A stretch of DNA of 64,000 bases from an uncultured Acidobacteriia bacterium (GTDB taxonomy: Bacteria > Acidobacteriota > Terriglobia > Bryobacterales > Bryobacteraceae), in the NCBI GenBank assembly GCA_903851195.1, contig CAINNJ010000025.1, positions 496,001-560,000 of the forward strand, written 5' to 3'. The position numbers and the translations under genes are program-made. Below the pieces are notes generated by a model. It was not told the DNA's origin, made no database searches, and saw only the letters and a list, made by a program, of their open reading frames with translations. Shown here piece by piece: positions 10,366 to 57,648 of this stretch (position 1 is the stretch's first letter; every line of letters starts with the position of its first letter).

Positions 10366-10387
10366 GTCTTTATCTCCTGTTTTCGCT

Positions 10388-12126: not shown

Positions 12127-12132
12127 GGAGAC

Positions 12133-12393: not shown

Positions 12394-12403
12394 AATACCG
12401 TCC

Positions 12404-13032: not shown

Positions 13033-13077
13033 GAGGATACTGCAATCAGCGTAGCCCATGCCTCATGATGGATATTT

Positions 13078-14429: not shown

Positions 14430-14472
14430 ACACCGCAGCGTTTTGGCGCGCTATCCTGAAAGCAGGCTCATT

Positions 14473-14949: not shown

Positions 14950-14989
14950 GACATCGCTTAAAGTCAGCCGCCGCCGCGTCGCGCAGGGT

Positions 14990-15040
14990 GGCGATTGCGC
15001 GTGGAACCTTTTTAAACGGCCGAAAACCACCGCAATCGCC
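14990..15040 (+). other. Long imperfect stem-loop upstream of the PQQ-like genes
   Basis: GGCGATTGCG at 14990-14999 and CGCAATCGCC at 15031-15040 pair perfectly, extended inward by GTGG/CCAC with one bulged C at 15000. The loop is about 22 nt (15005-15026). No T-tract follows, so it is not a canonical terminator. It could end the cytochrome transcript, protect RNA, or be a protein-binding site upstream of the promoter at 15062. Confidence 0.5.
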
Positions 15041-15061
15041 GCTGCCGTTCCCCGCACGTGA

Positions 15062-15067
15062 TATACT
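15062..15067 (+). promoter_or_regulatory. -10-like TATACT before the PQQ-like operon
   Basis: TATACT (5 of 6 consensus) would place the transcription start near 15074 and give a leader of about 57 nt containing an AAAGGAAGG stretch at 15114-15122. I see no clear -35 element. Confidence 0.35.
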
Positions 15068-15130
15068 CCACCGCAGGTTTTGAGTCGTTTCAATCTGTGT
15101 AAGAGTTGTGACCAAAGGAAGGTCGTTGCG

Positions 15131-16858
15131 ATGCGAAAGTTTTCATTGATGGCCCTGTCGGCCAGTGTGGCGTGTGCCGTCATCTGGGCCGCGGACTGGC
15201 CGGGTCAGAGCGGAAATCCCCAGCGGGACGGGTGGGCCAAAGCGGAAAAGGCCTTCACCAAAGAGAACGCGGGAAAAATCGAATTTCTCTATAAATATAA
15301 GGCAGAGAACCAGGCCAAAGGCCTGAGCGCGTTAGGTTCGCCGGTGATCAACGGCATGCTGATCACCTACCTCGGGTTCAAGGAAATGCTGGTGTTCGGC
15401 GGCAGTTCCGACAACGTCTACTCTGTCGACGCCGATCTGGCGCGGCTCATCTGGAAAGTCCATTTCGACAACAAGAGTGACAAGGCGGCGCCGGCGCCCA
15501 CCGCGGTCTGTCCGGGCGGCATGACGGCGGCGATTGCGATGCCCGGAAGCAGCACGGCAGGCGGTCGCGGACCCGGTGGTGGCGGCAGAGGACGCGGACC
15601 TGGAGCGCCCGGCGCAGCGGGCCCCGGACGTGGTCCGGGTGCCCCTGCCGCTGGCCGTGGCGCGGCTCCGGCTTTCCCCGCCCCGGGCGCCCCGCAACCG
15701 TTGTTTGCAGCGGGCAATTTCGGGCGCGCGGCGAACTTCGCGGCGATTGGCAGCGACGGCAATCTGCACGCGCTGAACTCCTCCACCGGCGGCGACCGGG
15801 CCACCCCGATTAAGTTCGTCCCGCCGAATTCCAAGGTCAGCGGTTTGAACGTGAACGACGGCGTGGTCTACGCGGCCACCCAGGATAGCTGCGGCGGTAA
15901 CGCGAACGGCATTTACGCGCTGGATCTGTCCACGCTGGAACCGAAGGCGTCGTCAATGGAACTGAATGGCGGCGGCGCGGCGGGATCCGGCGGCACGGCG
16001 GTCGGCACGGATGGCACGGTTTACGCCCAGATTCCGGACGGCACGGGTGAAGTGGCGGGTAAGTACAACGACACCGTAATCGCGATGTCGAAAGACCTGA
16101 AGGTGAAGGATTATTTCACGCCCTCCTCCACGGTTTCCGCCGTCACAAAGGGTATCCCGGCGCCCGGCGCCACGCCGGTGGTCTTCAGCTGGAAAGGCAG
16201 CGATGTGATCGTGGCGGGTGGACGTGACGGACGTCTGTATCTGCTCGATTCGAAGTCGCTGGGCGGCGCGGATCACCACACCCCGCTGTCGATGACGGAA
16301 CCGGTCGCGAGCCCCGACACGAAGTTCGCGGGCAATGGTTTCTGGGGGACGTTCGCAAGCTGGGAAGATACCGACAATGGCAATGCCCGCTGGGTGTATG
16401 CCTCCCTGTGGGGACCGGCCGCCGGCAGCGCGAAGTTGGGCGCCACCAACGGCAACGCCCCCAACGGCAGCATCGTGGCATTCAAGGTGGAAGAGCAGGG
16501 TGGCAAGCCCGTGCTGACTCCCGCCTGGTCGTCACGCGACATGCAGGCGCCGGCGCCCGTGGTGACGGCCAACGGTCTGGTGTTTGCGCTCTCGTCCGGT
16601 GAATCCGCCCGTCAGGCGAAAGAGAACGGAACGCCTTACACGGTTGCGGAAAAGCAGAAGATGGCGGGACGCGCGGTGCTGTATGTTCTGGACGGCGCGA
16701 CCGGCAAGGAACTCTATTCGAGCGGCAACATGACGGCGACGTTCTCCCACGGAACCGGCATCGCGGTAGCGAATCGCCGCATCTACTTCACCACTCATGA
16801 CAATCTGATGTACGCGCTGGGCTTCCTTGCGGAACAGCCGCAGCTGACCGGGAAATAA
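15131..16858 (+). CDS. Secreted PQQ-like beta-propeller protein, copy 1
   Basis: 575 residues from the ATG at 15131, with an AAAGGAAGG site 9 nt upstream and a signal peptide ending 'AVIWAADW'. Repeated blades include 'DNVYSVDADLARLIWKVHF', 'DGNLHALNSSTGG', 'DGRLYLLDSKSLGG' and 'VLYVLDGATGKELYSSG', typical of PQQ-dependent dehydrogenase-like propellers. Residues about 150-195 are an insert rich in Gly, Pro, Arg and Ala between blades. I see no complete set of quinone-binding residues, so enzymatic activity is unproven. The next gene, 11 nt downstream, is a paralogue. Confidence 0.8.
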   Translation: MRKFSLMALSASVACAVIWAADWPGQSGNPQRDGWAKAEKAFTKENAGKIEFLYKYKAENQAKGLSALGSPVINGMLITYLGFKEMLVFGGSSDNVYSVDADLARLIWKVHFDNKSDKAAPAPTAVCPGGMTAAIAMPGSSTAGGRGPGGGGRGRGPGAPGAAGPGRGPGAPAAGRGAAPAFPAPGAPQPLFAAGNFGRAANFAAIGSDGNLHALNSSTGGDRATPIKFVPPNSKVSGLNVNDGVVYAATQDSCGGNANGIYALDLSTLEPKASSMELNGGGAAGSGGTAVGTDGTVYAQIPDGTGEVAGKYNDTVIAMSKDLKVKDYFTPSSTVSAVTKGIPAPGATPVVFSWKGSDVIVAGGRDGRLYLLDSKSLGGADHHTPLSMTEPVASPDTKFAGNGFWGTFASWEDTDNGNARWVYASLWGPAAGSAKLGATNGNAPNGSIVAFKVEEQGGKPVLTPAWSSRDMQAPAPVVTANGLVFALSSGESARQAKENGTPYTVAEKQKMAGRAVLYVLDGATGKELYSSGNMTATFSHGTGIAVANRRIYFTTHDNLMYALGFLAEQPQLTGK

Positions 16859-16869
16859 GGACAACCACA

Positions 16870-18426
16870 ATGCGAAGACTCTATTCTTGTTTGATGTTCG
16901 CGGGCCTGATGACCATGCCCGCATCCGGCGCGGACTGGTTGACCGACGGCGGGAATCCACAGCGCACGGCCTGGCAGAAGGACGAACACATCCTGTCGCC
17001 TTCGAACGTAAAGGGTATGCAGATTCTGTGGAAACTGCAGCTCGATAATAAGCCGCAGCAGATGCACTCGCTGTTTCCGCCGCTGGTGATCGACCATCTG
17101 AAGACGTCGGCGGGCGATAAGCAGGTCGCGATCGTCTCCGGTATTTCGGACAACATTTACGCCATCGACGCGGTGGCCGGCACGGTGATCTGGAAGAAGC
17201 ATTTCGATTATCCGGAGCCTGCCAACAACCGTCCGGGCAATGACGATCCTCTTTGTCCCGAAGGCGCGCTCGCGACGCCCGTGATCGGGCCGGTGAATGC
17301 CAACGGACAACGGCCGGTGTACGCGCTGGCCGGCGACGGGAAGCTGCATACTCTCAACGCGGCGGACGGCGAGGAGTTGTCGCAGCCGGTGCAGTTCATG
17401 GGCGCGAACGCCAAGGCCTATGCGCTGAATCTGTGGAACAACGCGATCTACACGACCACAGCCCAGGGCTGCCACGGCAATCCGAATCAGATGTGGGCGA
17501 TGAAGCTCGACGATCCGACGCACAAGGTGATGACGGCGAGTCCGAAGAGCGGCGGGTTGTGGGGACGGACCGGCGCGGCGATCGATTCCAATGGCGTCGC
17601 CTGGGCGCCCACCGGCGACGGCCGTTATGAGAAGGACACGCAGACCTACGGTAACGGGCTGATCGGCGGCAAGATTTTCGGCGATGAACTGAAGATCGCC
17701 GATTATTTCATTCCCTCGAACTGGTCCTGGCTGCAGAAGCGCGATCTCGATTTCCAGGTGACGCCCGCGATCTTCACCTACAAGGGCCGCGAACTGATGG
17801 TGACGGCGAGTAAGGAATGCCGCGTCTACCTGATGGATCCGAAGAACCCGGGCGGGGACGATCACCAGACGCCGCTCGACCGGACGCCGCTGCTATGCAA
17901 CGAAGAAGTGAATTTCGCTTCGGCCGGCATCTGGGGCTCCATGGCGAGCTGGGAAGATTCCAAGGGCACGCGCTGGGTGCTCACGCCCTTCTGGGGACCG
18001 GTGCATCCCAAGCTGAAGGTGCCGATCACGAACGGCCCGGTGACCCACGGGGCGGTGATCGCGTTCAAGGTGGAAGAAAAGGGCGGCAAGCTGCAGTTGA
18101 CGCCGGCCTGGATCTCGCGGGATATGGATCAGGCGGAGCCTCCGGTGGTAGCCAACGGCGTGGTGTTTGCCTTCGGCAGCGGCGAGAATACGGTGCAGGC
18201 TTACCCGGAACTGGGCCTGCGGGATTCCAGCAAGATGCGCATCGCGGCATCGAAGCATGCGACGTTCTATGCGCTCGACGGCGAGACCGGCAAAGAGCTG
18301 TATTCGAGCGGCGAGCAGATCAAGTCGTGGGTGCACTTCGGCGGGCTGTCGGTCGCCAACGGGAGGGTTTACCTGGGGACGTACGACAGTATTCTGTATT
18401 GCTTCGGATTGCCGGGAACGAAGTAG
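16870..18426 (+). CDS. Secreted PQQ-like beta-propeller protein, copy 2
   Basis: 518 residues, signal peptide ending 'MPASGADW', AAGGAC 6 nt before the ATG. It aligns along its length with the preceding gene: both start with 'GNPQR', share 'DNIYAIDAVAGTVIWKKHF', 'WGSMASWED' against 'WGTFASWED' and 'ATFYALDGETGKELYSSG', but this copy lacks the Gly/Pro-rich insert. The pair arose by tandem duplication and is followed by a strong terminator. Such propellers can act as dehydrogenases or as scaffolds. Confidence 0.82.
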   Translation: MRRLYSCLMFAGLMTMPASGADWLTDGGNPQRTAWQKDEHILSPSNVKGMQILWKLQLDNKPQQMHSLFPPLVIDHLKTSAGDKQVAIVSGISDNIYAIDAVAGTVIWKKHFDYPEPANNRPGNDDPLCPEGALATPVIGPVNANGQRPVYALAGDGKLHTLNAADGEELSQPVQFMGANAKAYALNLWNNAIYTTTAQGCHGNPNQMWAMKLDDPTHKVMTASPKSGGLWGRTGAAIDSNGVAWAPTGDGRYEKDTQTYGNGLIGGKIFGDELKIADYFIPSNWSWLQKRDLDFQVTPAIFTYKGRELMVTASKECRVYLMDPKNPGGDDHQTPLDRTPLLCNEEVNFASAGIWGSMASWEDSKGTRWVLTPFWGPVHPKLKVPITNGPVTHGAVIAFKVEEKGGKLQLTPAWISRDMDQAEPPVVANGVVFAFGSGENTVQAYPELGLRDSSKMRIAASKHATFYALDGETGKELYSSGEQIKSWVHFGGLSVANGRVYLGTYDSILYCFGLPGTK

Positions 18427-45627: not shown

Positions 45628-46422
45628 TCAGGCCGGATCGCACCGGAGACGGACTTGACCCAGGTAGATTTCGTCCCCCGGTCGCAGCATCACGCCACGA
45701 GCCGCATGGGCTGGAACTTCAATACGCCGGCCTTCGCGAAATATGACGGTCCCGAGGGAACTGCCGTCATCATAAATCCGCCAGTCGCCCGTGGCCGCTT
45801 CGAACCGCAGATGGGCATGCGCGCGAGACACCGTGGCGTTCGCTTCGTCGGCGCCCTCGGGGAAGTAAAGATCGTTGCGGCGAATAGCGCGGCCGAGGGA
45901 ATCGAGCACCTCCGGCACGCGTCCGATGCTGATGTGCGGACGTTCCGCGACAAAGTCCCGCGCAGAAGAACAGCCCGTGAGCGTGACCAGGCGCATCGGC
46001 GCCAACGGGACAACGGCGGGCTGCGCGGGCACCCCCGGTTGCGCCGTTTTCTCGCACAGGACCCTGAGTTCCACCGCTGCCTCGGCCGGGTAGCCGACGG
46101 TAACGCTCAGTTCGTCCGGCGATTTTACCCCCGCTTCCACCAGAGTCGCCCGGATATCGCCGATCATCTGTTCCGGCGCGAACAAAGCTTCCAGCAGCAC
46201 CCGCCGGTCGGCCGTTTCCGCGCGCAGTTCCACCCGGATCCGGTCGAACGGAAACACACGGTCCCCGCGGCGGCCGACGGTAGCCCGGGCCGCGATCTGA
46301 TCGAGCGCATCGCGATAGAGTTCGATCGCTTCGCTCTGCGAAGCGGTACCCGCACCCGCTCCGGCGAACAGCCCGCGAACACGCTCATCGAGAGTCTTTT
46401 CCAGCCGGCGTAAAAAGCTCAT
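45628..46422 (-). CDS. FHA-domain protein, last gene of the cell-wall operon
   Basis: 264 residues from the ATG at 46422, overlapping the stop of the SEDS-PBP gene. An N-terminal helical region ('FLRRLEKTLDERVRGLFAG') is followed by a DUF3662-like stretch 'FPFDRIRVELRAETAD', then a C-terminal FHA domain with the phosphothreonine-binding 'ERPHISIGRVPEV' and 'SRAHAHLRFE', 'YDDGSSLGTV'. It would dock on proteins phosphorylated by the kinase three genes away. It resembles actinobacterial FhaA in layout. Confidence 0.85.
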   Translation of the reverse strand: MSFLRRLEKTLDERVRGLFAGAGAGTASQSEAIELYRDALDQIAARATVGRRGDRVFPFDRIRVELRAETADRRVLLEALFAPEQMIGDIRATLVEAGVKSPDELSVTVGYPAEAAVELRVLCEKTAQPGVPAQPAVVPLAPMRLVTLTGCSSARDFVAERPHISIGRVPEVLDSLGRAIRRNDLYFPEGADEANATVSRAHAHLRFEAATGDWRIYDDGSSLGTVIFREGRRIEVPAHAARGVMLRPGDEIYLGQVRLRCDPA

Positions 46423-49400
46423 GGGATTATTTTCAGCTGTTGCGCCGCAAGCACCAGATCGCCGGCCATGGGAGCCGCCGCCGTGCCGCCATAATGGCCG
46501 TTTTCCGCAAGGATGGAGAACGCGATCCGGCCCCGGTTCGCGGCGCCAGTGTTCGCCGGGGCAGTGCTCGCCGCACCCGTGTTCGCCGCGCCGGCCTTCG
46601 CCTCGCTGTACGGCGCAAAACCGATAAACCACGCGTGCGACGGCGCGTTCGCCAGTTCCGCCGTTCCCGTCTTCCCGGCAATAGCGGGACTGATCCCGGC
46701 GAGCCGTTTTCCGGTCCCGCTGGTCACCACGCCGCGCATATCTTTCGCCAGCAGATCCGCCAGACTGGAAGGAAGCAGTTTCTCCGGGGGCGCCGTGCGT
46801 GTGTTGCTGTCGTCCAGCACCCAGCGGCCGAACGGCAGCGCCCCGCCCGCCGCAATCGACGACGCCACGCGCGCCATCTGAAACGGCGACACCACCACCT
46901 GCCCCTGGCCGTACGAAATCTGCGGCATCTGCGGCTTCAGGTTCTTTACCGTCGCCGGATTCGCCACCGAAATACCGATCGTTTTCGCGGTTTCGAGCAA
47001 TGCTTCCGGGCCCACTTTATACGTCCCCAACTGCGCGAAATACGCATTACAGGAAACCACCAGAGCACGGTTCATGTCGAGCGTGCCGTGCGCGCCCGTA
47101 TCCTCCACGTCATCCCGTATCGGCCGTTTGGAGTTCCCCACGAAATTCCCGTTGCGGCCATCCGGCAGGCGCACGCACTGGTAGGTCTGGTGCGCCAGAC
47201 CGGGATCCACCCGCAGCGCCGCAATCGCGGTGACCACTTTAAACGTGGAACCCGGCGGATAAAGGCCGTATCTCGCACGGTCGAGCAGCGGACCAGCCGC
47301 TTCTCCCATCGACAGCTTTTCCTGCGTTAAATCCGGCGCGGGCCAGTTCACCGACGCCAGCAGATCACCCGTGGCCGGCTCCATCACCACCACCGAACCG
47401 CGCTGCAAATGCTGCTCCGCCAGACGCGTCTGCAGTATCTGCCCGGCCTTCACCTGAAGACCCGCATGGATGGACAGATGCACATTCCGCTCGCGATCGC
47501 GAATCCGCTTCACGGCCGGATAGTCGGGTTCCCAGCGATGACGAAGCAACGGCAGCAGTTCCCGGTAGTCGTACCGGACAGTGTTGAACGCTTTCCCGTC
47601 CCCACCTTTCACCTCGACGATGCGGGCCCGGTCGTCATAGCCCTGCAGACGAACCGCCTCGTCCCGCTCCACCAGCGAACTGTTCTGCGCGCCCCAGCTG
47701 GCGCGCGTCCGCAGATCCCCCAGCAGATGGAAGGTCAGCGACCCGAACGGATAGTGGCGGAAATCCGCGCGATTACAGGCCTTGTCGATATCGATTCCCA
47801 GTTCGTTATATTGCGCCCGGTGCTGTTCCAGTTCCGCCCAGTTGCTGGTCGCGAGAGGCAGTCCGGTGCGGTCGTATATGCCGCCGCGCTGCAGATCCCG
47901 GGCGGCGGCGATCAGACGGGGATTGTAGATGAACCGGCGTCCGCCATCGGCCTGCAGCACCAGCGTGCCTTCGCCGGCCACGGCATCGGCCCGCACCAGC
48001 TGGATGTAACCAGCCTTTCCAACCACGGCGAACGCCAGAACGGCGAGAATGATCTCCGCCCACCGCAGCCCGGCATGGAACGGAGCGGTCCTTTCCACCG
48101 GACCCTTCTCACGGCCCAGCGCCAGCAGAATTCCGGCGATCAGGAAATTGGCCAGCATCGCCGTGCGCCCATAACTAAGAAACGGCGTGGCCACGCCGGA
48201 CAGCGGAAACAGGTCCAGAATGCCGCCGGAAATCAGCAGCAGTTCTGCGCTCAGCAGCAGCGCCAGGCCCAGCGCAAGGAAGAACGCATAGTCCGTGCGG
48301 GCGCGGCGCGCGATGCGCAGGGCCATCCAGATCAGCAGGCCAAAGCTGCAGTAAGCGACCGCGATGCCCGCGAACCCCCATTCTTCTCCCAACACGGACA
48401 CAATCAGATCCGTATAGCCCGCGGGAATGACGTCGGATTCTCCCAGTCCGGGGCCGGTGCCAAGCGGACCGCCGGACGCCATCGCCCAGAGCGAGTGGAC
48501 CACCTGGTCGCCGCCCCGCACCGTATTGCTCCACGGCGAGAGCCACATGGAGACGCGATCGTGCACGGTCTTCGGAGTTCCCAGGAAATATCCGGCCAGA
48601 AAGCCGCCGCACAGCGTCGCCATGCCAAGAATCGCCAGCGGCGCACGGTTCCGGGCAATTGCATAGAGCGAAAGAAAGACCGCCGCGAACACCAGCGCCG
48701 GGCCCAGATCGCGCTGCAGATAGAAGAACAGCACCGCCACGCCGACCCCCAGCATCACCGGCGCCGCGTACTCCAGACGCGGCAACTCCACGCCGGGGAT
48801 CACAAAACGCTTTTCGTGCAACTGGCGCAACAGCGGCCAGCGTTTCGAGAAATACCCGGCCAGGAAGAACACCAGCAGAATCTTGATCGCTTCCACCGGC
48901 TGGAACGGTCCCAGGTTTACCCGCGCGTCGCTGCCGGCGGGTCCCGATCCGAAGAAGATCAGGGCCACCGAAAGCGCAATCGCTCCCAACAGCGGCACGA
49001 AACTGTAGCCCGCCGTGGTGGACTCCCAGTCGACGAAACCAGCCAGCATCATGAGCAGGCAGCCGCCCGCCACTCCCTGCGCAAACGGGACGAAGATCAG
49101 CGTGTCCCGCAGCGGATCGCGCAAAGCCACCATCAGCGCGAATCCGATTCCCGTAAGCAGCAACAGCAGAGGCAGAAAGGCCCACGGCCCGGTGAAGCCG
49201 CGAAACGTCCAGATCAGACTGACCAGCAGAAAAGCCGCGAGCATCATCCCCGCCGAAAGCAGAAATTCGTGCCGGAATACCGCCGCATCCCGCACGGCAA
49301 TCTGCGGTTTGAGTTGCGCGAACTCGGGCGAAGTGAGCAGGGTGATGGTTTCCGACTTCGCGTTTTCCGCTCGCTTGCGCAGTTCATCAAGCCTGCGGTT

Positions 49401-49766
49401 GCCCATCAGATCGGCCCGCGCCACACGGAGACGAGCCAGCGCGCCGGTGTTGGCAATCGGCCCTCCCTGCTCTGTCAGAAAATCAAACAGGCGCCGCGCC
49501 ACAAACTCCCGGTCGGCCGGGCTCTGGAACACGGCCAGCACGGGGTAAAGCTTCTCCGCCCGGTCTACCTGCGAAAGATTGATCTGCGGCGCGGGAACAG
49601 CCGAACGCCGGAGCTTGGCCGAGTACACCAGCCACCACGCTCCGGACACGATCACGGCGATCAGCAACAACGCGATCAGTTCGGGCGCGCGATTCGCACG
49701 CGCGATCCCCCCCGGCCTCTGTCGCGCCGCTTCGCGGGATACCGCAGTGCTGCGTGTAACGGCCAT
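46419..49766 (-). CDS. RodA/FtsW (SEDS)-penicillin-binding protein fusion
   Basis: 1115 residues, ATG at 49766, overlapping both neighbours by 3-4 nt. A first membrane helix is followed by an extracytoplasmic helical domain (about residues 50-165), then a SEDS polymerase domain of about ten helices ('NLGPFQPVEAIKILLVFFL', 'LWAMASGGPLGTGPGLGES') and a class-B transpeptidase half. Catalytic motifs are complete: SxxK 'STFK' (Ser840, Lys843), SxN 'SCN' (905-907) and KTG (1032-1034). It would polymerise and crosslink peptidoglycan in one chain. A short 'NTG-AA' repeat-rich loop lies near the C-terminus. Confidence 0.92.
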   Translation of the reverse strand: MAVTRSTAVSREAARQRPGGIARANRAPELIALLLIAVIVSGAWWLVYSAKLRRSAVPAPQINLSQVDRAEKLYPVLAVFQSPADREFVARRLFDFLTEQGGPIANTGALARLRVARADLMGNRRLDELRKRAENAKSETITLLTSPEFAQLKPQIAVRDAAVFRHEFLLSAGMMLAAFLLVSLIWTFRGFTGPWAFLPLLLLLTGIGFALMVALRDPLRDTLIFVPFAQGVAGGCLLMMLAGFVDWESTTAGYSFVPLLGAIALSVALIFFGSGPAGSDARVNLGPFQPVEAIKILLVFFLAGYFSKRWPLLRQLHEKRFVIPGVELPRLEYAAPVMLGVGVAVLFFYLQRDLGPALVFAAVFLSLYAIARNRAPLAILGMATLCGGFLAGYFLGTPKTVHDRVSMWLSPWSNTVRGGDQVVHSLWAMASGGPLGTGPGLGESDVIPAGYTDLIVSVLGEEWGFAGIAVAYCSFGLLIWMALRIARRARTDYAFFLALGLALLLSAELLLISGGILDLFPLSGVATPFLSYGRTAMLANFLIAGILLALGREKGPVERTAPFHAGLRWAEIILAVLAFAVVGKAGYIQLVRADAVAGEGTLVLQADGGRRFIYNPRLIAAARDLQRGGIYDRTGLPLATSNWAELEQHRAQYNELGIDIDKACNRADFRHYPFGSLTFHLLGDLRTRASWGAQNSSLVERDEAVRLQGYDDRARIVEVKGGDGKAFNTVRYDYRELLPLLRHRWEPDYPAVKRIRDRERNVHLSIHAGLQVKAGQILQTRLAEQHLQRGSVVVMEPATGDLLASVNWPAPDLTQEKLSMGEAAGPLLDRARYGLYPPGSTFKVVTAIAALRVDPGLAHQTYQCVRLPDGRNGNFVGNSKRPIRDDVEDTGAHGTLDMNRALVVSCNAYFAQLGTYKVGPEALLETAKTIGISVANPATVKNLKPQMPQISYGQGQVVVSPFQMARVASSIAAGGALPFGRWVLDDSNTRTAPPEKLLPSSLADLLAKDMRGVVTSGTGKRLAGISPAIAGKTGTAELANAPSHAWFIGFAPYSEAKAGAANTGAASTAPANTGAANRGRIAFSILAENGHYGGTAAAPMAGDLVLAAQQLKIIP

Positions 49767-51622
49767 CAGGGCGTTTCCTTTGGCGCGGGCGCCGGCGGGG
49801 AGGGCGGTTGCGCGGCCTGCTGCGCCGCCGCCAGGGTTCGCTGCGCCTGCTCGCGCTCCGCGGAGACCTGTTCGGAAAGCTGTACGCCTTTCAGGAACGG
49901 GGCCACGGCATTGTAGAGACTCTGCGCATGTTCCAGATCGCTGTCGGCATGCTTCAGCGCATCCTGCATCTGATTGATGTCGTGTGCCCGTTTCGCCTCC
50001 GCGATCCACCGCTCGCCGTGCTTCCGGTACGCATCGGCCAGAGCTTTCTGCTCCCGCCGCCCGGGGCGGAACCCATTCCGCTGGGCCTCATGCAGTTCCT
50101 CTTCAGCCCGGTCCAGTTCACTGTCGTTCATGTGGATCAGCGCCAGGCCCAGATGCGGATCGGGCGAATTCGGCAGCAGATTCCGGGCATCTTCAAAGTC
50201 CGACCGGGCGGTTTTCAGATCCCCGGCCCGCAGGCGCAGATGGCCATCCACCATCTTCGATTTGCCGCGAATCGACTTGTCGTCCGGCGCGATCGACACC
50301 GCCTGCGTGAGCGCGCCCTGCGCCCGTTTCCAGTCCCGCGAATAAACCGGCGTGCTTTCACTGGCCTCGCGGTAATCGGCGATGACGCGATCGGCTTCCG
50401 CCACATAGCGGTCGCGCAGACTGTTGCGCGCCGGCCAGAGGGGCCAGGCAAACAGACTCTTCCGCGCCAGCGCCCGGTACTGCTTCGCGCCTTCGTCCGT
50501 GCTGAGCTGGCCGGAATCGATCTGTTTTCTCAGCGCGATGGCGTTGTTCAGCATGCGAACTTCATACACCACGGTGAATACAGCGGCCAGGAACAGCGCC
50601 ACGCCCGTGACGATGCCGATCCGCAGCGCCTGACTGGCAATCCGGAACGCACGGGGTTTCTTCGCTATCGCCGCGGAGATGGGCACCGCGGTGCGGCGCG
50701 TGCGCTCCTCCGTATTCGCGTAAGCCGTGCGGCGCGTGGCTTCGGGATCCGCCGACGGCGCCGGCTCCGGACGCGCCATCAACTGCCAGTCGTGAAGCGC
50801 CGCCTGGAACTGCGCGGCACTGACGAACCGCCGGTTCAGATCCGGATCGAGAGCGCGCGCCAGAATCTCGCGCAGCCCCCGCGGCAAGTTCGCAACGGCC
50901 GGGGACAGCGCTTTATAGTTGCGGATCATCCATTCGAGTTTGGACGACGCTTCGGATTCGAAATACGTCTTGCCGGTCAGCATTTCAAACAGCACGATGG
51001 CGACCGACCAAACATCGGAACGGGCGTCCATATCGCCTGTCTGCAAACGTTCCGGCGACGAATACGGAATGCTGCCGTACTGATTGAAGGTAATGCTGCG
51101 CGTCATGGACACGGCTTTGGCGATCCCGAAATCGAGCACCTTCACGTGTCCGGCCGGCGTAATACGAATATTGCGCGGCTTGATATCGCCATGAATAATG
51201 CCGCGGTGAGCGCGCTCTTCGATGACGGTCTGAAAATTATGCGCCTTGACCAGAACGTCGAGGATATCGAGCGCGATGGACACCGCCCGATCCGGCTGCA
51301 GCGGGCCGCGCAGAACCAGTTCGGACAGATCCTCGCCCTCGATATACTCCATGGCGATGTAGAAGTAGCCGTCGCGCTCGCCGACATCGAAGATCTGCGC
51401 CACCCGTCCGCCCGGTTCGCGCTTGGCCAACTGGTCCTGCAGCGTAGCCCCGCGCCGCTCGGCAGCCACGGCTTCAAGACTGTCGTGATCGCCTCCGGCA
51501 TCGATGAGTTTCAGCCCCACCTGCCGGTTCAGCACCGGGTCGTAAGCCAGAAAGACCCGCCCCATGCCGCCGCCCGCGAGCTTGCGAACAATCTGGTAAC
51601 GGCCGAAGAGTTTCGGGTCCAC
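49766..51622 (-). CDS. Transmembrane Ser/Thr protein kinase with TPR-like C-terminal domain
   Basis: 618 residues from a GTG at 51622. Kinase residues 1-290: glycine loop 'LAGGGMGRVF' (17-24), Lys38, catalytic Asp146 in 'HGDIKPRN', DFG at 164-166, 'SPERL'. The catalytic loop is HGD rather than HRD. A helix follows near 335-357 ('TGVALFLAAVFTVVYEV'). The remaining part (about 370-600) is TPR-like helical repeats rather than the PASTA domains of PknB, and would be outside the cytoplasm if the topology is as predicted. It sits directly before the SEDS-PBP fusion. Confidence 0.9.
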   Translation of the reverse strand: MDPKLFGRYQIVRKLAGGGMGRVFLAYDPVLNRQVGLKLIDAGGDHDSLEAVAAERRGATLQDQLAKREPGGRVAQIFDVGERDGYFYIAMEYIEGEDLSELVLRGPLQPDRAVSIALDILDVLVKAHNFQTVIEERAHRGIIHGDIKPRNIRITPAGHVKVLDFGIAKAVSMTRSITFNQYGSIPYSSPERLQTGDMDARSDVWSVAIVLFEMLTGKTYFESEASSKLEWMIRNYKALSPAVANLPRGLREILARALDPDLNRRFVSAAQFQAALHDWQLMARPEPAPSADPEATRRTAYANTEERTRRTAVPISAAIAKKPRAFRIASQALRIGIVTGVALFLAAVFTVVYEVRMLNNAIALRKQIDSGQLSTDEGAKQYRALARKSLFAWPLWPARNSLRDRYVAEADRVIADYREASESTPVYSRDWKRAQGALTQAVSIAPDDKSIRGKSKMVDGHLRLRAGDLKTARSDFEDARNLLPNSPDPHLGLALIHMNDSELDRAEEELHEAQRNGFRPGRREQKALADAYRKHGERWIAEAKRAHDINQMQDALKHADSDLEHAQSLYNAVAPFLKGVQLSEQVSAEREQAQRTLAAAQQAAQPPSPPAPAPKETP

Positions 51623-51623
51623 G

Positions 51624-53222
51624 CTAAGGCCGCCCCTTCTTTGTAGTCAGCGCCGGCTTTGTTGTCACCGGCGCCGGCTCGTCGACCAGTCGCACGGCTT
51701 TCTTCGCGGACAGGCCGCCGAAGAAATTCTCCTGGAAATCGGCCGGCTGCCAGGCGTGCCCGTGAACCCAGACCGGATCCGCGCCATTATCGGAAATCGA
51801 GTTATCTTTCAGCACCGGATGCCCGGTGTCCTGCACCTCAATGCCCGGTTTCGGCTCGCCGGGTTTGCCGTTCCCGTTGGCCGCGATCTGGTTATTCTCG
51901 ATGCGCGGTTTCGAATTGGCGCCCACCTCGATGCCGGTCCCCAGATTATTCGCGATCTGGCTCGATGAAAGCAGCGGCGCGGACGCGCCTTTCAGCACAA
52001 TCCCCGTCTGCGCGCCCGTCACCCGCACATACGAAATCGTGGGACTCGAGTCGATCAGTTCAATGCCCGCCGAAGCCGGAGCATTGAGATCGCTTTGAAT
52101 CCAGATGCCTTCCACCGAGCCGGTCTGCAGATTCCGCGCCGTCACGGCCGGCCCGCCATCCGGTGAAATCAGGGTCACCGAATTCGGCTGCTGCGCCCGC
52201 AGCGTCACACCTTCCCGCAACTGCACGCGCTCTTTGTATTTGCCCTGCGGAATAAGAACCGTGTCACCCGAATGTGCCTGACTGAGCGCGGCGCCGATGC
52301 TGCCGGCGGCGACAAGCGTGCGTGGGCCCGCGGCCGAAAACTGACCGCGCAGATACGGGATCGACAGGCCGAGAACGGTGCCGAGCAGCAGACCGCCAAC
52401 CAGCGCGTACGGCCAGATGAGCGGCGTCTTGCCCCGCTTTTCCTTCACGGGCGCGACTTCCGGGGCCTGCGGCTTATAGCCCGGCGCCGCCACCACGACA
52501 ATCGTGATGTTGTCCTTGCCGCCCGCGTGGTTCGCCGCATCGATCAGCGCATGGATCGCCGCCTCGTAATCGGGGGCATAACGCTCCACCCCGGCGCGGA
52601 TTTCGGCGCTGCCGATCAGGTCCGTCAGACCGTCCGAACACAGCAGAATGGCCGCATCCGCGGGCATCCCGAAACTGGCAATCTCGATGAAGGAAGGATC
52701 GTCCGGCGAGCGCTCGCCCGTGCCGACATCCCGGTAAATCTCATTGCGCCGGGGGTGGCGCATGGCGTCGGCTTCCGAAATATCGCCCTTGTCTTCCCTC
52801 TCGCCCACCGGAGAATGATCATGCGTAATCTTTCGAATCACGCCGGGCTGCAGCAGGTAAAGCCGCGAATCGCCCACATGCCCCACCGTCACCACGTCCT
52901 CTTCGATGAGCGCAACCGTGAGGACACACGCCATGCCTGTCCATTCCGGCCGCGACCTGGCGAGACGGTAAATCTCATTATTCGCGAGCGCGATGGCCTC
53001 GCGGATACGGTCTTCGGGTGTGCCCGTGGGGCGCTCGAGGCGTTCCTTCAGGACGTCGACAGCGGCCGCCGCCGCATGCTCGCCCGCCGCGTGGCCGCCT
53101 ACACCGTCGATCACGGCAAAAATGCCGCGCTCGGCATCCACGTAATACCGATCTTCGTTATTCGTGCGCCGGCGGCCCATATCGCTGGCCGCCGCCGACA
53201 ACAGCCGCGCCCGAACCGCCAT
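51624..53222 (-). CDS. PP2C phosphatase with membrane helix and parallel beta-helix domain
   Basis: 532 residues. The PP2C metal-site motifs are all present: 'RTNNEDRYYVD', 'AVIDGVGGHAAGE', 'LCSDGLTDLI' and 'GGKDNITIVVV'. A helix follows near residue 270 ('YALVGGLLLGTVLGLSIPY'), then about 240 residues of right-handed beta-helix repeats ('GIVLKGASAPLLSSSQIAN', 'GIEVGANSKPRIENNQIA'), as in NosD-like carbohydrate-binding folds. The enzyme would reverse the kinase, and the helix domain would be extracytoplasmic. ATGA overlap with the microprotein gene and 1 nt before the kinase start. Confidence 0.9.
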   Translation of the reverse strand: MAVRARLLSAAASDMGRRRTNNEDRYYVDAERGIFAVIDGVGGHAAGEHAAAAAVDVLKERLERPTGTPEDRIREAIALANNEIYRLARSRPEWTGMACVLTVALIEEDVVTVGHVGDSRLYLLQPGVIRKITHDHSPVGEREDKGDISEADAMRHPRRNEIYRDVGTGERSPDDPSFIEIASFGMPADAAILLCSDGLTDLIGSAEIRAGVERYAPDYEAAIHALIDAANHAGGKDNITIVVVAAPGYKPQAPEVAPVKEKRGKTPLIWPYALVGGLLLGTVLGLSIPYLRGQFSAAGPRTLVAAGSIGAALSQAHSGDTVLIPQGKYKERVQLREGVTLRAQQPNSVTLISPDGGPAVTARNLQTGSVEGIWIQSDLNAPASAGIELIDSSPTISYVRVTGAQTGIVLKGASAPLLSSSQIANNLGTGIEVGANSKPRIENNQIAANGNGKPGEPKPGIEVQDTGHPVLKDNSISDNGADPVWVHGHAWQPADFQENFFGGLSAKKAVRLVDEPAPVTTKPALTTKKGRP

Positions 53223-53323
53223 CAGCGCCGCTCCCGGGTCACCGCGAAATAACCGATCAGAGCGACCGCGACCAGCATCGCCACCAGCACGACCGTTCGC
53301 CCCAGCAGAAGATCTTTCATCAT
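53222..53323 (-). CDS. 33-aa single-pass membrane microprotein
   Basis: 33 residues from an ATG at 53323 (a second ATG follows at once). Residues about 11-28 form one membrane helix ('VVLVAMLVAVALIGYFAV') flanked by a Lys/Asp/Arg N-terminus and 'TRERR'. It starts 13 nt after the FHA stop, and its TGA overlaps the PP2C ATG (ATGA at 53219-53224 region), so the spacing strongly favours real translation. It may tether or regulate an operon partner; I know no family for it. Confidence 0.6.
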   Translation of the reverse strand: MMKDLLLGRTVVLVAMLVAVALIGYFAVTRERR

Positions 53324-53336
53324 TCGCGAACCCGAA

Positions 53337-54269
53337 CTAAATCGTTTCCCACTGCAGGTCGATCACGCCCGCCAGGCTGATGGTGGCGCGCGCCGGAATC
53401 TCCACCGGACTGTTCTGCACCACCGGTTTGCCGTTCACCGCGGTGCCGAACTGGCTGGTGTCTTCGATCGTGAAACGGCCGGTTTCCGGATCGCGCCGGA
53501 TCCGGCAATGTTCCCGCGAAACGTCGGGCAGGGTCTCCAGCCGGAGATCCACCCAGTACGATCTGCCGCCTCGCCCGATCACCATCTGATTCTTCGTCAC
53601 CTCGAACGTTTTCGCACCCTGCTGGTCCGCATAACGGATATACGCAAAAGCGCGCCCTTTTGTGCCATCGTCTTGCGGAATTTTTCCGGCGGGCTCCGCT
53701 TCGGGGGACGGCTCGGAAGCAAGCTGCGTTGCAGCGGGCGCGACAGATGTCACCACCGTGGGAGCGCTGTCCGCGGGTTCGGGTCCGGCATTCTCCTGAT
53801 CGTCAGCTTTTCTGGGGAAGATCCGGCGGGTCAGCGATCCCGCGCCGTACTCCGGCTTCTGCGGCGCACCCAGATCGGAATACACTTCGATCTCACCGGG
53901 CTGCAGTTTTTCATCCAGATCCGGATAGATCTCGACCGTCCAGCCCTCCGCCACCCGGACGAACTCACTGGCCTCGATCACCTCGCCCACTCCGATCCTG
54001 CCGAGCAGCGATTGCGCGAGTTTTCGCTTCGAGCCATTCCACCTCGCCAGCCGTTCATCCAGCGAGGCTCGAATCTCGCCCGCGATAAACGGCACCACAT
54101 CGCGGAAGGGTTCATAATCCGCCGGGCTCAGGTAGATCCGGTAAATCGCGGGGACGATGGTTTTCCGGCGGATACGGAACAGTCCCTCTTCCATGTTGCG
54201 CAGCACTTCTCCGATAAGATCGTCGCCATTCAGACGACCGGAGGGGCGGCCCGCGGCTCGGCCAGTCAT
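53337..54269 (-). CDS. FHA-domain protein with DUF3662-like N-terminus (FhaA-like)
   Basis: 310 residues. The N-terminal part (about 15-130) looks like DUF3662: 'IVPAIYRIYLSPADYEPF', 'GWTVEIYPDLDEKLQPGEI'. An acidic Pro/Ala-rich linker follows, then an FHA domain near 215-300 with 'TKNQMVIGRGGRSYWVDL', 'LPDVSREHCRIRRD' and 'SQFGTAVNGK'. This is the FhaA architecture. It is the first gene of the operon; TACAAT (54278-54283) lies 8 nt before its ATG, beside an AGGA. Confidence 0.87.
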   Translation of the reverse strand: MTGRAAGRPSGRLNGDDLIGEVLRNMEEGLFRIRRKTIVPAIYRIYLSPADYEPFRDVVPFIAGEIRASLDERLARWNGSKRKLAQSLLGRIGVGEVIEASEFVRVAEGWTVEIYPDLDEKLQPGEIEVYSDLGAPQKPEYGAGSLTRRIFPRKADDQENAGPEPADSAPTVVTSVAPAATQLASEPSPEAEPAGKIPQDDGTKGRAFAYIRYADQQGAKTFEVTKNQMVIGRGGRSYWVDLRLETLPDVSREHCRIRRDPETGRFTIEDTSQFGTAVNGKPVVQNSPVEIPARATISLAGVIDLQWETI

Positions 54270-54360
54270 AATTTCCTATTGTAGAGTCAGCGAGCGAGCC
54301 CGTGACGTCCAGGGTGAGCCAACTGCAAATGCCTTAGACTGAAGGAAGCAGTTCGGAAAT

Positions 54361-54639
54361 ATGACAGACGCTCAGATCATTGCTATCGGGATCACGGTGC
54401 TCGCGGTATTGGCCGGGACACTGTTCAACAACGCCCGGATTTCGGACCTCAACGGCGCGGTCAATGCGCGCCTCGGTTCCGTGGAAAGCCGCTTTGCTTC
54501 CATGGAAAGCCGTTTCTCGTCGATGGAGACGCGCTTTGAGAATCGTTTCAACTCCATCGACCGCAAACTCGATGAAATCCTCCGCATCGTCGGCAATCAC
54601 GAGACGCGCATTTCAGTCCTCGAACAGCATCCCCGCTGA
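54361..54639 (+). CDS. Membrane-anchored coiled-coil protein, copy A
   Basis: 92 residues. One membrane helix ('IIAIGITVLAVLAGTLFNN') is followed by heptad-like repeats built from 'RFSSMET' and similar units and a C-terminal helix 'RKLDEILRIVGNHETRISV'. TAGACT at 54335-54340 and a GGAA before the ATG are both preserved in the second copy. The protein would project into the cytoplasm or periplasm; nothing indicates its partner. Confidence 0.65.
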   Translation: MTDAQIIAIGITVLAVLAGTLFNNARISDLNGAVNARLGSVESRFASMESRFSSMETRFENRFNSIDRKLDEILRIVGNHETRISVLEQHPR

Positions 54640-54672
54640 TCCCGGCCCGCCGATTCCCGAAAGCCTGCCTGC

Positions 54673-54744
54673 TCAGCGCCGGCTTTTCAGATTCTCCTCA
54701 AACAGCTTAAAGATCCGCTTGTACTCGTCGGCCCAGTTCGAAGC
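54673..54744 (-). pseudogene. Duplicated 3' remnant of the S9 peptidase gene
   Basis: The minus strand encodes the last 23 or so residues of the peptidase ('WADEYKRIFKLFEENLKSRR' then stop), nearly identical to the true end at 55177. The sequence breaks off at 54744, where FHA-derived sequence starts. It has no start and cannot be a gene. Confidence 0.85.
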
Positions 54745-54833
54745 AGTCCCTCTTCCCTGTTGCGCAGCACTTCTCCGTGCCTGTACAAATTGCCGGGTGC
54801 AAATGCCTTAGACTGAAAAAGCAGTTCGGAAAT

Positions 54834-55145
54834 ATGACAGACGCTCAGATCATTGCTATCGGGATCACGGTGCTCGCGGTATTGGCCGGGACCCTGTTCA
54901 ATAACGCCCGGATTTCGGACCTCAACGGCACGGTCAACGCGCGCCTCGGTTCCGTGGAAGGGCGCATCTCTTCGTTGGAGACGCGCTTTGAGAATCGTTT
55001 CAACTCCATCGAAAGCCGCCTGGGTTCGATGGAGAATCGCGCCGAAAACCGTTACAGTTCCATCGACCGCAAACTCGATGAAATCCTGCGCATCGTCGGA
55101 CACCACGAGACGCGGATTTCGGTCCTCGAACAGCATCCCCGCTGA
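54834..55145 (+). CDS. Membrane-anchored coiled-coil protein, copy B
   Basis: 103 residues. Identical at both ends to copy A, it differs inside the coiled coil, where one extra heptad-type block ('SIESRLGSMENRAENRYS') is present, so the repeat region has expanded or shrunk since duplication. The promoter-like TAGACT (54810-54815) and start context match copy A. Both copies are open, so both may be expressed. Confidence 0.65.
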   Translation: MTDAQIIAIGITVLAVLAGTLFNNARISDLNGTVNARLGSVEGRISSLETRFENRFNSIESRLGSMENRAENRYSSIDRKLDEILRIVGHHETRISVLEQHPR

Positions 55146-55163
55146 TCCCGCCGCCGATTCCCG

Positions 55164-55190
55164 AAAGCCGGCCTGCTCAGCGCCGGCTTT
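55164..55190. terminator. Convergent terminator overlapping the peptidase stop codon
   Basis: AAAGCCGGC (55164-55172) pairs perfectly with GCCGGCTTT (55182-55190), 9-nt loop, with T runs at both ends. It lies between the coiled-coil gene and the peptidase stop (55177-55179). Confidence 0.55.
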
Positions 55191-57648
55191 TCAGATTGTC
55201 CTCAAACAGCTTAAAAATTCGCTTGTACTCGTCGGCCCAGCTCGAAGCTTCCCGGAAACTGTGATCCTCCACCGGATACACCGCCAGATCCCAGTTTTCT
55301 TTCCGCAGCTCAATGAGCTTCTGCACCAGACGCACCGTGTCCACGAAATGGACATTTGTATCCACCATGCCGTGACAGATCAGCAGGTGTCCCTTCAGAC
55401 CGTTCGCGAAATAGATCGGTGAAGACTGCTTATACGCCTCTGCGTCCGTCTGCGGCTGGTTGAGAATGTTGCCGCTGTACTGCTGGTTGTAATAAGCCCA
55501 GTCGCTGACCGGACGCAGCGCGGCCCCGGCGGCAAATACGTCGGGCTCCGTGAACATCGCCATCAGCGTAATAAATCCGCCGTAGCTGCCGCCGTAAATT
55601 CCGATTTTCTTGGGATCCACGCCATGCTCGGACACAATCCATTTCGCCGTATCCACCTCGTCCGTCAGATCCGTTCCGCCCATGTGGCGATAGATCGCCG
55701 TCCGCCAGTCGCGCCCATAGCCCTTGGACGCCCGATAATCCACTTCGACCACCAGATACCCGTGTTCCATCAGAAAGTGATGAAACAGATACTCGTGAAA
55801 ATAACTGGACGACCACCCTTTCGTGATGTCCTGCAAATAGCCCGCGCCATGCACGAACACCACCGCCGGGCCGCCCTTCTTATAGCCCGCCGGTTTATAC
55901 AGATGAGCGGGAAGCTTCGCGCCATCCCGCGCCGGAATTTCCACAACGGGCGTATCGAGCCACGCATATTCGGCGAAATCGGAAGCGGGTGAAGAGGTAA
56001 TTTTCGCCGCCGCGGCCATGGCCTGATTCGGCTGCACATATAACTCCGGCGGCTTATTCGTAGAAGAGTAAATATCCGCCACCCACTTCTCATCGGGGGA
56101 AAGCTGAGCCGCATGATTGCCGGGCAGTTTCGTCATCCGCGTGCGGGCGCCGCCATTCACGCTCATGCGCCACAGATGATGCTCATACGGGCTGCCCTCG
56201 CTGCTGCTCAGATAAAACGTCGACTTATCCCGTGACAGCACCACGCGGTCCACTTCGAACCGGCCCTGCGTCAACTGCTTCGGCGTACCGCCTTCCCACG
56301 GCACTTCATACAGATGATTAAACCCGTCCCGTTCGGACGTAAAATAAAAGGTCTTATTGTCGGCCAGCCAGCCCGAGCCACCGCCGGGGCCGCCGAGCCA
56401 GGCCGCATCCTTATCCGACGCGATCACCCGCGCCTTCGCGCTGGCCGGATCGAGCGCAAAAATCCAGCAGCTCTTGTTGTCCTGCGAACGCGCGCTGAAC
56501 ACGGCCTTCTGGCCGTCCGGCGAAAAGGAAACCGTCTGGGCCTGACCGCCCCGTCCGCCCCCGCCAAAGTCACCGCAGCCGCCGCCGTCTTCGATCTGCG
56601 CGGCCGCCACGCCCACTTCACCATGCTCGATATTCTTCACTTCGCCCGTCACCACATCGATGACAGCCAGCCGGCGATGCGAAATGCCATCGCCTACGCG
56701 CGCCCGGCCCGGAATGTCTTCGGGGAAGGCGGAATCCGTCACATAGTTGGGAACGTTCGACGTCTTCGAACCGTTCGGCAACTCCGTGATGGAGGCGAGC
56801 ACGAACTTGCCATCGGGCGAAAGCTGCAGTTGTCCCACGGTCTGCCGCGCGCCTAAAGTGAAAGGCTTCCGGACGGCGAGTTTCTTCTGCCGGGCGTCCG
56901 CCTCCTCCTTGTATTTCAGGCGGTCGCGAACCACCTCGAACATCTCGCGCTGCTCTTTCTTCAGATATTCCTGCGCATCGGTGCCCTTCGGAGTTTCACC
57001 GGCGGCCGGTGTGCCACCGCCCCGACCGCCACGCCCGCCAGCACCCCCGCGCCCACCCGCGGCAGCAGCAGCCGCGCCAGCAGCATCCGGAGCACCCGCC
57101 GGACGGATATCGGTCAACTGTTCCAGGTCCCCATTGTCGAGCGACAGCAGAAACAGATTCCCGCCGCGCTGGAACGTGATCCGGTGTCCCGCAGGCAGAA
57201 ATCGCGGATTGGTTTCCGCGTCGGCGGTCTTCGTGATCTGGCGCCGCTTGCCCGTGGCATTCTCCACCAGAACCAGATCGCCATCCTGCGAAAAGACCGA
57301 CTCCGTGCCGCTCTCATTGGTTTCAGCGAAGGCCGGCGGCGCGAGCCGCGCTTCCTCTTCCGCGAGCTTACGAAGCCCCGTGCCATCGCGGTTCACCACG
57401 TAGGTATCGAGCGGCGCGGCCACCGGCTCCGAAGCCTGTTTCCACTGGAAATAGATCCTGGCGTTATCGCCGGACCAGCGCACCTGCGCCGGCTCATAGC
57501 CCACCAGATTGGGCCCCCGCATCAGATTGTCGATCGTGAGCGAGAACTTCGTCTCGCCCGCGCTGGCCGCCAGCGGACCCAGCACCAGACAGGAGGCAAG
57601 AACGCCGGTCAGCGGACCGTTCGCGAGAGCACGAAACATATTCTGCAT
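55177..57648 (-). CDS. S9 family serine peptidase (prolyl oligopeptidase/DPP-IV-like)
   Basis: 823 residues from the ATG at 57648 (57639 is a possible start), with a signal peptide ending 'PLAASAGE'. A beta-propeller half with 'VSFSPDGQKAVFSARSQDN' is followed by an alpha/beta hydrolase domain: Ser688 in 'GGSYGGFITL', Asp763 in 'CHGMVDTNVHF' and His796 in 'PVEDHSFRE'. It would cleave peptides outside the cytoplasm. A Gly/Arg/Ala-rich insert lies in the propeller, and the start region overlaps that of a divergent gene. Confidence 0.92.
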   Translation of the reverse strand: MQNMFRALANGPLTGVLASCLVLGPLAASAGETKFSLTIDNLMRGPNLVGYEPAQVRWSGDNARIYFQWKQASEPVAAPLDTYVVNRDGTGLRKLAEEEARLAPPAFAETNESGTESVFSQDGDLVLVENATGKRRQITKTADAETNPRFLPAGHRITFQRGGNLFLLSLDNGDLEQLTDIRPAGAPDAAGAAAAAAGGRGGAGGRGGRGGGTPAAGETPKGTDAQEYLKKEQREMFEVVRDRLKYKEEADARQKKLAVRKPFTLGARQTVGQLQLSPDGKFVLASITELPNGSKTSNVPNYVTDSAFPEDIPGRARVGDGISHRRLAVIDVVTGEVKNIEHGEVGVAAAQIEDGGGCGDFGGGGRGGQAQTVSFSPDGQKAVFSARSQDNKSCWIFALDPASAKARVIASDKDAAWLGGPGGGSGWLADNKTFYFTSERDGFNHLYEVPWEGGTPKQLTQGRFEVDRVVLSRDKSTFYLSSSEGSPYEHHLWRMSVNGGARTRMTKLPGNHAAQLSPDEKWVADIYSSTNKPPELYVQPNQAMAAAAKITSSPASDFAEYAWLDTPVVEIPARDGAKLPAHLYKPAGYKKGGPAVVFVHGAGYLQDITKGWSSSYFHEYLFHHFLMEHGYLVVEVDYRASKGYGRDWRTAIYRHMGGTDLTDEVDTAKWIVSEHGVDPKKIGIYGGSYGGFITLMAMFTEPDVFAAGAALRPVSDWAYYNQQYSGNILNQPQTDAEAYKQSSPIYFANGLKGHLLICHGMVDTNVHFVDTVRLVQKLIELRKENWDLAVYPVEDHSFREASSWADEYKRIFKLFEDNLKSRR

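Follow-up and report, generated by a model that had tools for sequence, protein, structure and literature searches.

A conserved acidobacterial gene cassette joining a SEDS-PBP fusion to a kinase, a phosphatase and FHA proteins, and its possible role as a phosphorylation-gated peptidoglycan synthase

Described systems and the six-gene operon

In Actinobacteria, the pstP locus unites PstP, RodA, PbpA, a PASTA kinase, FhaA and FhaB, and a pknB-fhaA cluster has also been found in some Firmicutes, according to excerpts of PMC6554272. An excerpt of PMC11898655 links FhaA to phosphorylated partners in wall synthesis. Concerning the synthase itself, natural fusions of a SEDS protein and a penicillin-binding protein (PBP) in a single open reading frame (ORF) exist, with the Rhodococcus RHA1 genome cited (excerpt of PMC10449877), and lipid II polymerisation has been shown for engineered fusions of E. 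coli RodA with PBP2 (excerpts of PMC10449877 and PMC6207328). Here we examined an operon in a 64,000-nt stretch (the window) of contig CAINNJ010000025.1 (assembly GCA_903851195.1), from an uncultured Acidobacteriia bacterium of the Bryobacteraceae, in which a SEDS-PBP fusion gene lies among genes for a Ser/Thr kinase, a PP2C phosphatase and two FHA proteins. We consider it rather probable that this operon is a cassette for a phosphorylation-gated peptidoglycan synthase, which would act beside the elongation (RodA-PBP2) and division (FtsW/FtsI-type) synthases of the same cell.

The operon consists of six minus-strand ORFs between 54269 and 45628 (window positions, as throughout), with successive junctions of +13, -1, +1, -1 and -4 nt. 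The first-pass annotation had reported six minus-strand genes with gaps of 13 nt or less or overlaps, and reading all ORFs and junctions confirmed this. The features are as follows.

53337..54269, minus strand: FhaN (FHA-1), 310 aa, FhaA_N-like N-terminal domain and C-terminal FHA domain
53222..53323, minus strand: membrane microprotein, 33 aa, single-pass, 13-nt gap after FhaN
51624..53222, minus strand: PP2C phosphatase, 532 aa, PP2C domain, transmembrane segment and extracytoplasmic right-handed beta-helix; 1-nt TGATG overlap with the microprotein ORF (microORF)
49766..51622, minus strand: Ser/Thr kinase, 618 aa, GTG start, Pkinase domain, transmembrane segment and extracytoplasmic TPR region; 1-nt gap after the PP2C gene
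46419..49766, minus strand: SEDS-PBP fusion, 1115 aa, SEDS glycosyltransferase and class B PBP; 1-nt TGATG overlap with the kinase gene
49749..49766, minus strand: fusion codons 1-6, MAVTRS, conserved cytoplasmic N-tail with the candidate phospho-threonine T4
45628..46422, minus strand: FhaC (FHA-2), 264 aa, FHA domain and divergent N-terminal domain; 4-nt ATGA overlap with the fusion gene

At their greatest length, the open frames of the fusion (from 50009) and of FHA-2 (from 46632) extend into the upstream genes. The true starts are likely ATG 49766 and ATG 46422, respectively, which we preferred because both fit the junctions and the relatives.

The operon resembles the actinobacterial locus in clustering an FhaA-type FHA protein, a transmembrane PP2C, a transmembrane Ser/Thr kinase, and SEDS and class B PBP sequences. 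There are also clear differences. The actinobacterial rodA and pbpA are separate, whereas here they correspond to one 1115-aa ORF. The actinobacterial locus has two kinases, and PknB has an HRD catalytic loop; the cassette has one kinase, upstream of the synthase, with a TPR-like ectodomain, no PASTA domain listed and an HGD loop. Its PP2C carries a beta-helix, unlike that of the actinobacterial locus. FhaB consists of a transmembrane segment and an FHA domain, while the cassette holds a membrane microprotein without FHA domain where, as we take it, the actinobacterial gene order has FhaB, together with a terminal FHA protein. Finally, the cassette is accessory to other synthases, unlike the actinobacterial locus. 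The stand-alone fusions likewise carry the SEDS polymerase and the class B PBP on a single polypeptide, but the listed neighbours of a Rhodococcus pseudokoreensis plasmid gene that looks like such a fusion include no FHA, PP2C or kinase gene. The PpkA-PppA-Fha module of type VI secretion also couples a kinase, a phosphatase and an FHA protein to a membrane machine; the machine here is a wall synthase, and the cassette is without conserved flanking genes. A link to type VI secretion found no support, with the 14 listed flanking families untested for it and the genome unsearched for its genes. Among the titles and abstract starts listed in a literature search, none described the acidobacterial cassette, which is weak evidence of absence.

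Distribution and limits of the cassette

Relatives were drawn from a phylum sample of 297 genomes, an order sample of 200 genomes and a contig scan, from which the best 80 of 261 relatives were taken as named loci. For the neighbourhoods, 40 loci from the sampled genomes and the 80 named loci, many on the same contigs, were combined, and removal of identical fusions left 90 (window excluded). All five large genes were detected in 61 of the 90, and 60 of these 61 keep the window's gene order with all five on a single strand; the neighbourhood comparison that the first-pass annotation had called for thus found the arrangement present among relatives. The sole exception in order was locus L087, where 6052-17667 is rearranged and holds further kinase matches. 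Most of the remaining 29 loci were cut by contig ends. Protein identity to the window ranged roughly from 28 to 82%, and the identities of the five proteins correlated pairwise with r = 0.78-0.94 (52 loci). When flanking ORFs were clustered in the 76 loci that had them (61 upstream, 66 downstream), no family occurred in more than six loci, and the largest families occurred on both sides. Therefore, the conserved unit ends at FhaN and FhaC. Judged by this gene order, the six-gene set is a conserved cassette. In one locus (L093:14333-15010), a further kinase match lies directly downstream of FhaC.

In the phylum sample, 137 of the 297 genomes gave matches with the fusion at E≤1e-20, most of them to ordinary separate SEDS or PBP genes. 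A full-length fusion was found in eight (one split over two contigs and one reported in two pieces), and a divergent relative in genome G053 brought the cassette total to nine. FhaN, searched for independently, was found in seven of the 297, every one a fusion carrier. In G148, a fusion carrier without an FhaN call, the contig apparently begins inside FhaN, of which 33 residues could be read in locus L156; we took L156 as the contig of G148 from its identical length and match positions. G053 has an ORF matching FhaA_N above the Pfam cut-off beside divergent PP2C, fusion, kinase and FHA genes, and its locus, L088, is too diverged for the tblastn queries. The order in L088:5346-14872 is an ORF without Pfam match, the FhaA_N protein, PP2C, fusion, kinase (HGD) and FHA. 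In the order sample, fusion and FhaN were each present in 60 of the 200 genomes, 59 of them common to both (G444 had only the fusion, G441 only FhaN), and the near-full-length fusion matches were single open frames without stops. Four listed members of the window's own genus have neither gene; one of these genomes is only 83% complete. Some genomes carry two cassette copies, including G332 and G390 among those fetched.

All 80 named loci (the best 80 of 261 relatives) bore acidobacterial titles, and a tree of the fusion (quick method, no bootstrap) placed the window among genomes of its own genus, in agreement with the acidobacterial host assumed in the first-pass annotation. Because the fusion of Occallatibacter savannae (Acidobacteriaceae) groups with that of a genome of the window's family (SH-aLRT 100), the tree suggests that the cassette was transferred within the phylum. 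The Spirosoma branch, described below, and the L088 branch are long and their placement is unsure.

We also looked at the other synthases of the genome with NCBIfam models. A PBP2 gene (637.6 bits, cut-off 455) adjoins a RodA gene (408.3 bits, cut-off 336.7). An FtsW-type SEDS gene (317.5 bits, just under the cut-off of 337.5) accompanies an FtsI/SpoVD-type PBP gene (393.8 bits, below the cut-off of 688), and these two start about 11 kb beyond the operon. Because separate RodA-PBP2 and FtsW/FtsI-type genes are present, the fusion is, by profile assignment, an accessory third pair of SEDS and class B PBP.

In a tblastn search of plasmids, the fusion query was covered to at least 80% by a single record, plasmid unnamed7 of Spirosoma oryzicola (NZ_CP089545.1), a member of Bacteroidota; of the partial plasmid matches, H1 and H6 were inspected. 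The record is annotated with FHA, PP2C, kinase, kinase, FtsW/RodA/SpoVE and FHA proteins. We ran the acidobacterial family profiles on five of the six proteins, leaving out the second kinase, and all counterparts were matched by position: fusion (E=4e-186), PP2C (1e-94), kinase (2e-38), FhaN (1e-24) and FhaC (9e-21), the E-values applying to a set of only five sequences. A hydrophobic microORF of 27 residues (L197:6767-6850) begins two bases after the stop of the first FHA gene and carries no gene in the record. The likeness to the window thus lies in the order FHA-microORF-PP2C-kinase-kinase-SEDS/PBP-FHA. On the other hand, the Spirosoma cluster has two kinases, of which the one examined is HRD, where the window set has one with HGD, and its fusion has a different N-tail and a larger N-terminal insert than the acidobacterial fusions. 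Spirosoma fusion and FhaN queries found no second cassette among plasmids, and viral contigs gave one weak partial match only, leaving viral carriage unsupported. In the literature search, none of the listed titles or abstract starts described the Spirosoma cluster.

Directly upstream of the operon in the window lies a duplication of about 0.5 kb (54346-55248), with pieces 84-95% identical at a spacing of 473-506 nt. It spans plus-strand ORFs such as 54361-54639 and 54777-55145.

The encoded proteins

Pfam was run on the five large proteins of the operon. The fusion matched FTSW_RODA_SPOVE (E=4.7e-46, residues 235-553) and Transpeptidase (E=3.7e-33, residues 790-1078), and bears an extra N-terminal transmembrane segment and extracytoplasmic domain. 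T452-D453 was present in all 85 fusions compared, D453 presumably being the SEDS catalytic Asp. In the SxxK, SxN and KTG motifs of the PBP half, S840, T1033 and G1034 were found in 85 of 85, and K843, S905, N907 and K1032 in 84 of 85. Excerpts of PMC10449877 and PMC6207328 name residue D262 of E. coli RodA. As far as its motifs tell, the fusion is a SEDS polymerase plus class B PBP with intact catalytic residues. The AlphaFold2 model had a pLDDT of 89.2 and a pTM of 0.82, with low confidence in the first 20 residues (block means 49-50). M. tuberculosis PbpA was near the top of the sequence relatives of the PBP half in the PDB, and its fit gave a root-mean-square deviation (rmsd) of about 5, against about 9-14 for most PBP3/SpoVD chains among the 50 matches listed; a Klebsiella PBP3 chain fitted comparably (TM-score by target 0.77 against 0.71-0.74 for PbpA, rmsd 6.4). 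Residue 4 was Thr in 74 of the 85 fusions, in the MAVTRS tail and within an otherwise variable cytoplasmic stretch. Each of the four Thr codons occurs at this position, and therefore it is the peptide, not the DNA, that is conserved.

The kinase matched Pkinase (E=4.5e-32) and TPR_19 (E=5.8e-6), the transmembrane segment being read from the sequence. K38, D146 and D164, which we take to be catalytic together with the HRD loop, were invariant in 84 of 84 kinases. As the Arg of HRD is replaced by Gly in 78 of these (Ala in 4, Thr in 1, Arg in 1), the cassette kinase is, by its motif, a non-RD kinase with an HGD catalytic loop. T296, in the juxtamembrane segment, was conserved in 82 of 84 within an otherwise variable cytoplasmic stretch. 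Of 27 kinases scanned with Pfam, 17 have TPR_19; PASTA is not among the 17 families listed for this set. The best NCBIfam model was that of the PASTA-kinase PknB family, below its cut-off.

The phosphatase matched PP2C (E=4.5e-14) and Beta_helix (E=9.9e-14), its transmembrane segment again being read from the sequence. The aspartates D24, D39, D118, D197 and D237, presumably the metal site, were invariant in 71 of 71 relatives, and Beta_helix was found in 20 of 28 PP2C proteins scanned. The best NCBIfam model, also below cut-off, was the Stp1 family. A second cassette subfamily has a short PP2C of about 280-320 aa (L073, L078, L083, L084 and L104), which probably lacks the beta-helix ectodomain; both the long- and the short-PP2C form are present in G332 and in G390.

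FhaN matched FHA (E=1.9e-12). The DUF3662-like N-terminus claimed by the first-pass annotation was correct but weak in the window itself (PF12401 FhaA_N, E=1.3e-4, 22.8 bits, under the 25-bit cut-off), whereas all 25 aligned FhaN proteins, the window's included, matched FhaA_N at E≤1, the best at 2.6e-7. FhaN is the only place in the window's genome with such a match, and among 14 control genomes only Corynebacterium glutamicum gave one. R233 and S251 of its FHA domain were invariant (68 of 68). FhaC matched FHA (E=2.7e-7), with the corresponding Arg in 75 of 75 and Ser in 68 of 75. We assume that these Arg and Ser residues hold the phosphate of phosphothreonine in both proteins. N-terminal slices of FhaC matched FhaA_N in 11 of 31 cases at E≤1 (best 5.4e-5), with no match for the window's own slice, and the FhaC N-terminal domain is thus possibly FhaA_N-like. 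A common origin of the two N-terminal domains was not supported by profile comparison (probability 0.3%), although both give FhaA_N matches, and profile searches of both slices against the PDB found no FhaA chain. The AlphaFold2 model of FhaC (pLDDT 94.1) has an FHA part resembling OdhI/GarA, proteins that act on metabolism. The NCBIfam FhaB model touched FhaN only (16.4 bits against a cut-off of 125), and the TagH model gave 26.5 bits with the FhaN FHA domain against a cut-off of 120. In one relative (L068/L109), the FhaN frame is apparently interrupted, with continuous homology across the break.

The microprotein was surveyed in 65 other loci with both neighbours readable and a distinct PP2C; two more were skipped for a short FhaN. 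A hydrophobic ORF of 20-60 residues lay in the FhaN-PP2C gap in 41 of the 65, and in 41 of the 43 loci whose gap measures 60 nt or more (missing in L074 and L160). Resampled sequence predicted 2.6, and a single one was found on the opposite strand of these 43 segments, which rules out a chance ORF. A 4-nt ATGA overlap with FhaN begins 32 of the 41, the start having been chosen as the candidate closest to the -4 overlap, a choice that favours this class. The proportion of nonsynonymous differences (pN) was below that of synonymous differences (pS) in all 11 pairs listed with more than 50% identity (14 sequences compared). Ten of them had pN of 0.08-0.33 and pS of 0.40-1.0, with L086-L183 close (0.33 against 0.40), and the pair L151-L153 was nearly identical, too similar for pN/pS to tell. 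By its recurrence and these substitution patterns, the microprotein is real and conserved, and its ORF is under selection. In the alignment of 43 microproteins (the 41, the window's and that of Spirosoma), 40 have Arg or His immediately ahead of the membrane segment, and 39 are richer in Lys and Arg at the C- than at the N-terminal end. Because of this Lys/Arg-rich C-terminus, an N-out/C-in topology is suggested. Sixteen of the 24 loci without the microORF, plus L074, sit in one clade of the fusion tree. As a speculation, the microprotein may derive from a membrane helix of FhaB.

Proposed mechanism and rival explanations

In a phosphorylation-gated synthase, strands would be polymerised from lipid II by the SEDS half of the fusion and crosslinked by its class B PBP half. 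The membrane kinase with its TPR ectodomain would phosphorylate its own juxtamembrane T296 and T4 in the N-tail of the fusion, and FhaN and FhaC would bind these phosphothreonines, and thereby assemble, place or switch the synthase. PP2C would reset the phosphorylation, its beta-helix perhaps reading wall or surface glycan, and the microprotein would be a small subunit of the synthase complex. Phosphorylation of T296 and T4, FHA docking, sensing by the ectodomains, the partners of the microprotein and the timing of synthase use are what we infer here. We favour phosphorylation gating because the order is kept while the flanks vary, FhaN and the fusion co-occur, the catalytic and phosphothreonine-binding residues and both threonines are conserved, the identities correlate, the genome has other synthases, and a homologous cassette exists in Spirosoma.

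Several observations weigh against it. The kit is, to judge from the loci, not strictly indivisible: by tblastn, which could miss diverged copies, L090, L172 and L181 lack the PP2C gene that elsewhere separates FhaN from the kinase, L123 lacks FhaN, L130 and L166 lack FhaC, L097 is without the three upstream genes, and L167 has none of the four partners. Thr4 is absent from 11 of the 85 fusions (Ser in two of these), the FHA serine position of FhaC is Gly or Ala in 7 of 75, and the correlated identities probably reflect in part shared ancestry. The Spirosoma fusion lacks a MAVTRS-like tail and thus Thr4, and Pfam found neither FhaA_N nor Beta_helix in the Spirosoma proteins, with the second FHA domain below cut-off. 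A scan for promoters and terminators was uninformative, with one promoter-like site (1.8 in shuffles) and 12 terminator-like sites (8.6 in shuffles, standard deviation 3.2).

The first-pass annotation had matched the operon to the actinobacterial fhaA-fhaB-pstP-rodA-pbpA-pknA/B locus. The kit-like content, the operon layout and a distant kinship with actinobacterial and Firmicute families, seen in the PknB, Stp1, FhaA_N and PbpA matches, stand; equivalence does not, given the fused synthase, the absence of PASTA among the families listed, the lack of FhaB at its place, the HGD loop, and the accessory and patchy occurrence. One could go further and regard the operon as the acidobacterial counterpart by descent, with the same housekeeping task in elongation. 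The shared kit, an FhaA_N domain that only C. glutamicum showed among the controls, the closeness of kinase and PP2C to PknB- and Stp1-type models and the fit of PbpA would agree with this. We nevertheless regard it as unlikely, and lowered it because RodA-PBP2 and FtsW/FtsI-type genes are found elsewhere in the genome; in addition, the synthase is fused, the kinase is non-RD without a listed PASTA domain, FhaB is not at the locus, the cassette was found in only 9 of the 297 phylum genomes and is missing from four listed same-genus genomes, and PbpA and the Klebsiella PBP3 chain fit the PBP half about equally. About equally doubtful is a conditional or protective role, in which a spare, partly mobile synthase serves against wall damage, cell-wall inhibitors or desiccation and is of value for tolerance over growth. 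The patchy, accessory and self-contained nature of the cassette, its presence in two copies in some genomes and once on a plasmid, and the kinase and phosphatase ectodomains, of TPR or beta-helix type, fit such a role, but no gene family recurs beside the cassette in more than 6 of the 76 loci. Least probable, and in our estimate distinctly so, is that the genes are only co-transcribed neighbours, with the kinase/phosphatase/FHA set acting on other targets without control of the fusion. Here the GarA/OdhI-like FHA domain of FhaC and the fusion that stands alone in L167 have to be set against a cassette kept without its flanks across the phylum, homologous in another phylum, and a conserved Thr in the fusion tail.

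Beyond phosphorylation gating as such, we tentatively raise a broader possibility, which we hold with much less confidence: that the cassette is an autonomous, horizontally moving module spanning Acidobacteriota and Bacteroidota, with a third, one-chain synthase of SEDS and class B PBP, its own kinase and phosphatase, FHA docking on a phosphorylated MAVTRS tail, and, at the place of FhaB, a regular microprotein subunit some 27-33 residues long.

If phosphorylation gating is correct, control of peptidoglycan synthesis by phosphorylation would reach beyond Actinobacteria and Firmicutes, where it is best known, and in other phyla would take the form of a compact accessory cassette. One operon would hold polymerase, crosslinker, kinase, phosphatase and readers, making Ser/Thr-phosphorylation gating of a SEDS-class B PBP synthase directly testable in a small system whose candidate threonines have been named, and because other synthases are present, study of the cassette would probably meet no essential-gene problem. 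The cassette would also add a conserved membrane microprotein family of a size that small-ORF cut-offs would miss.

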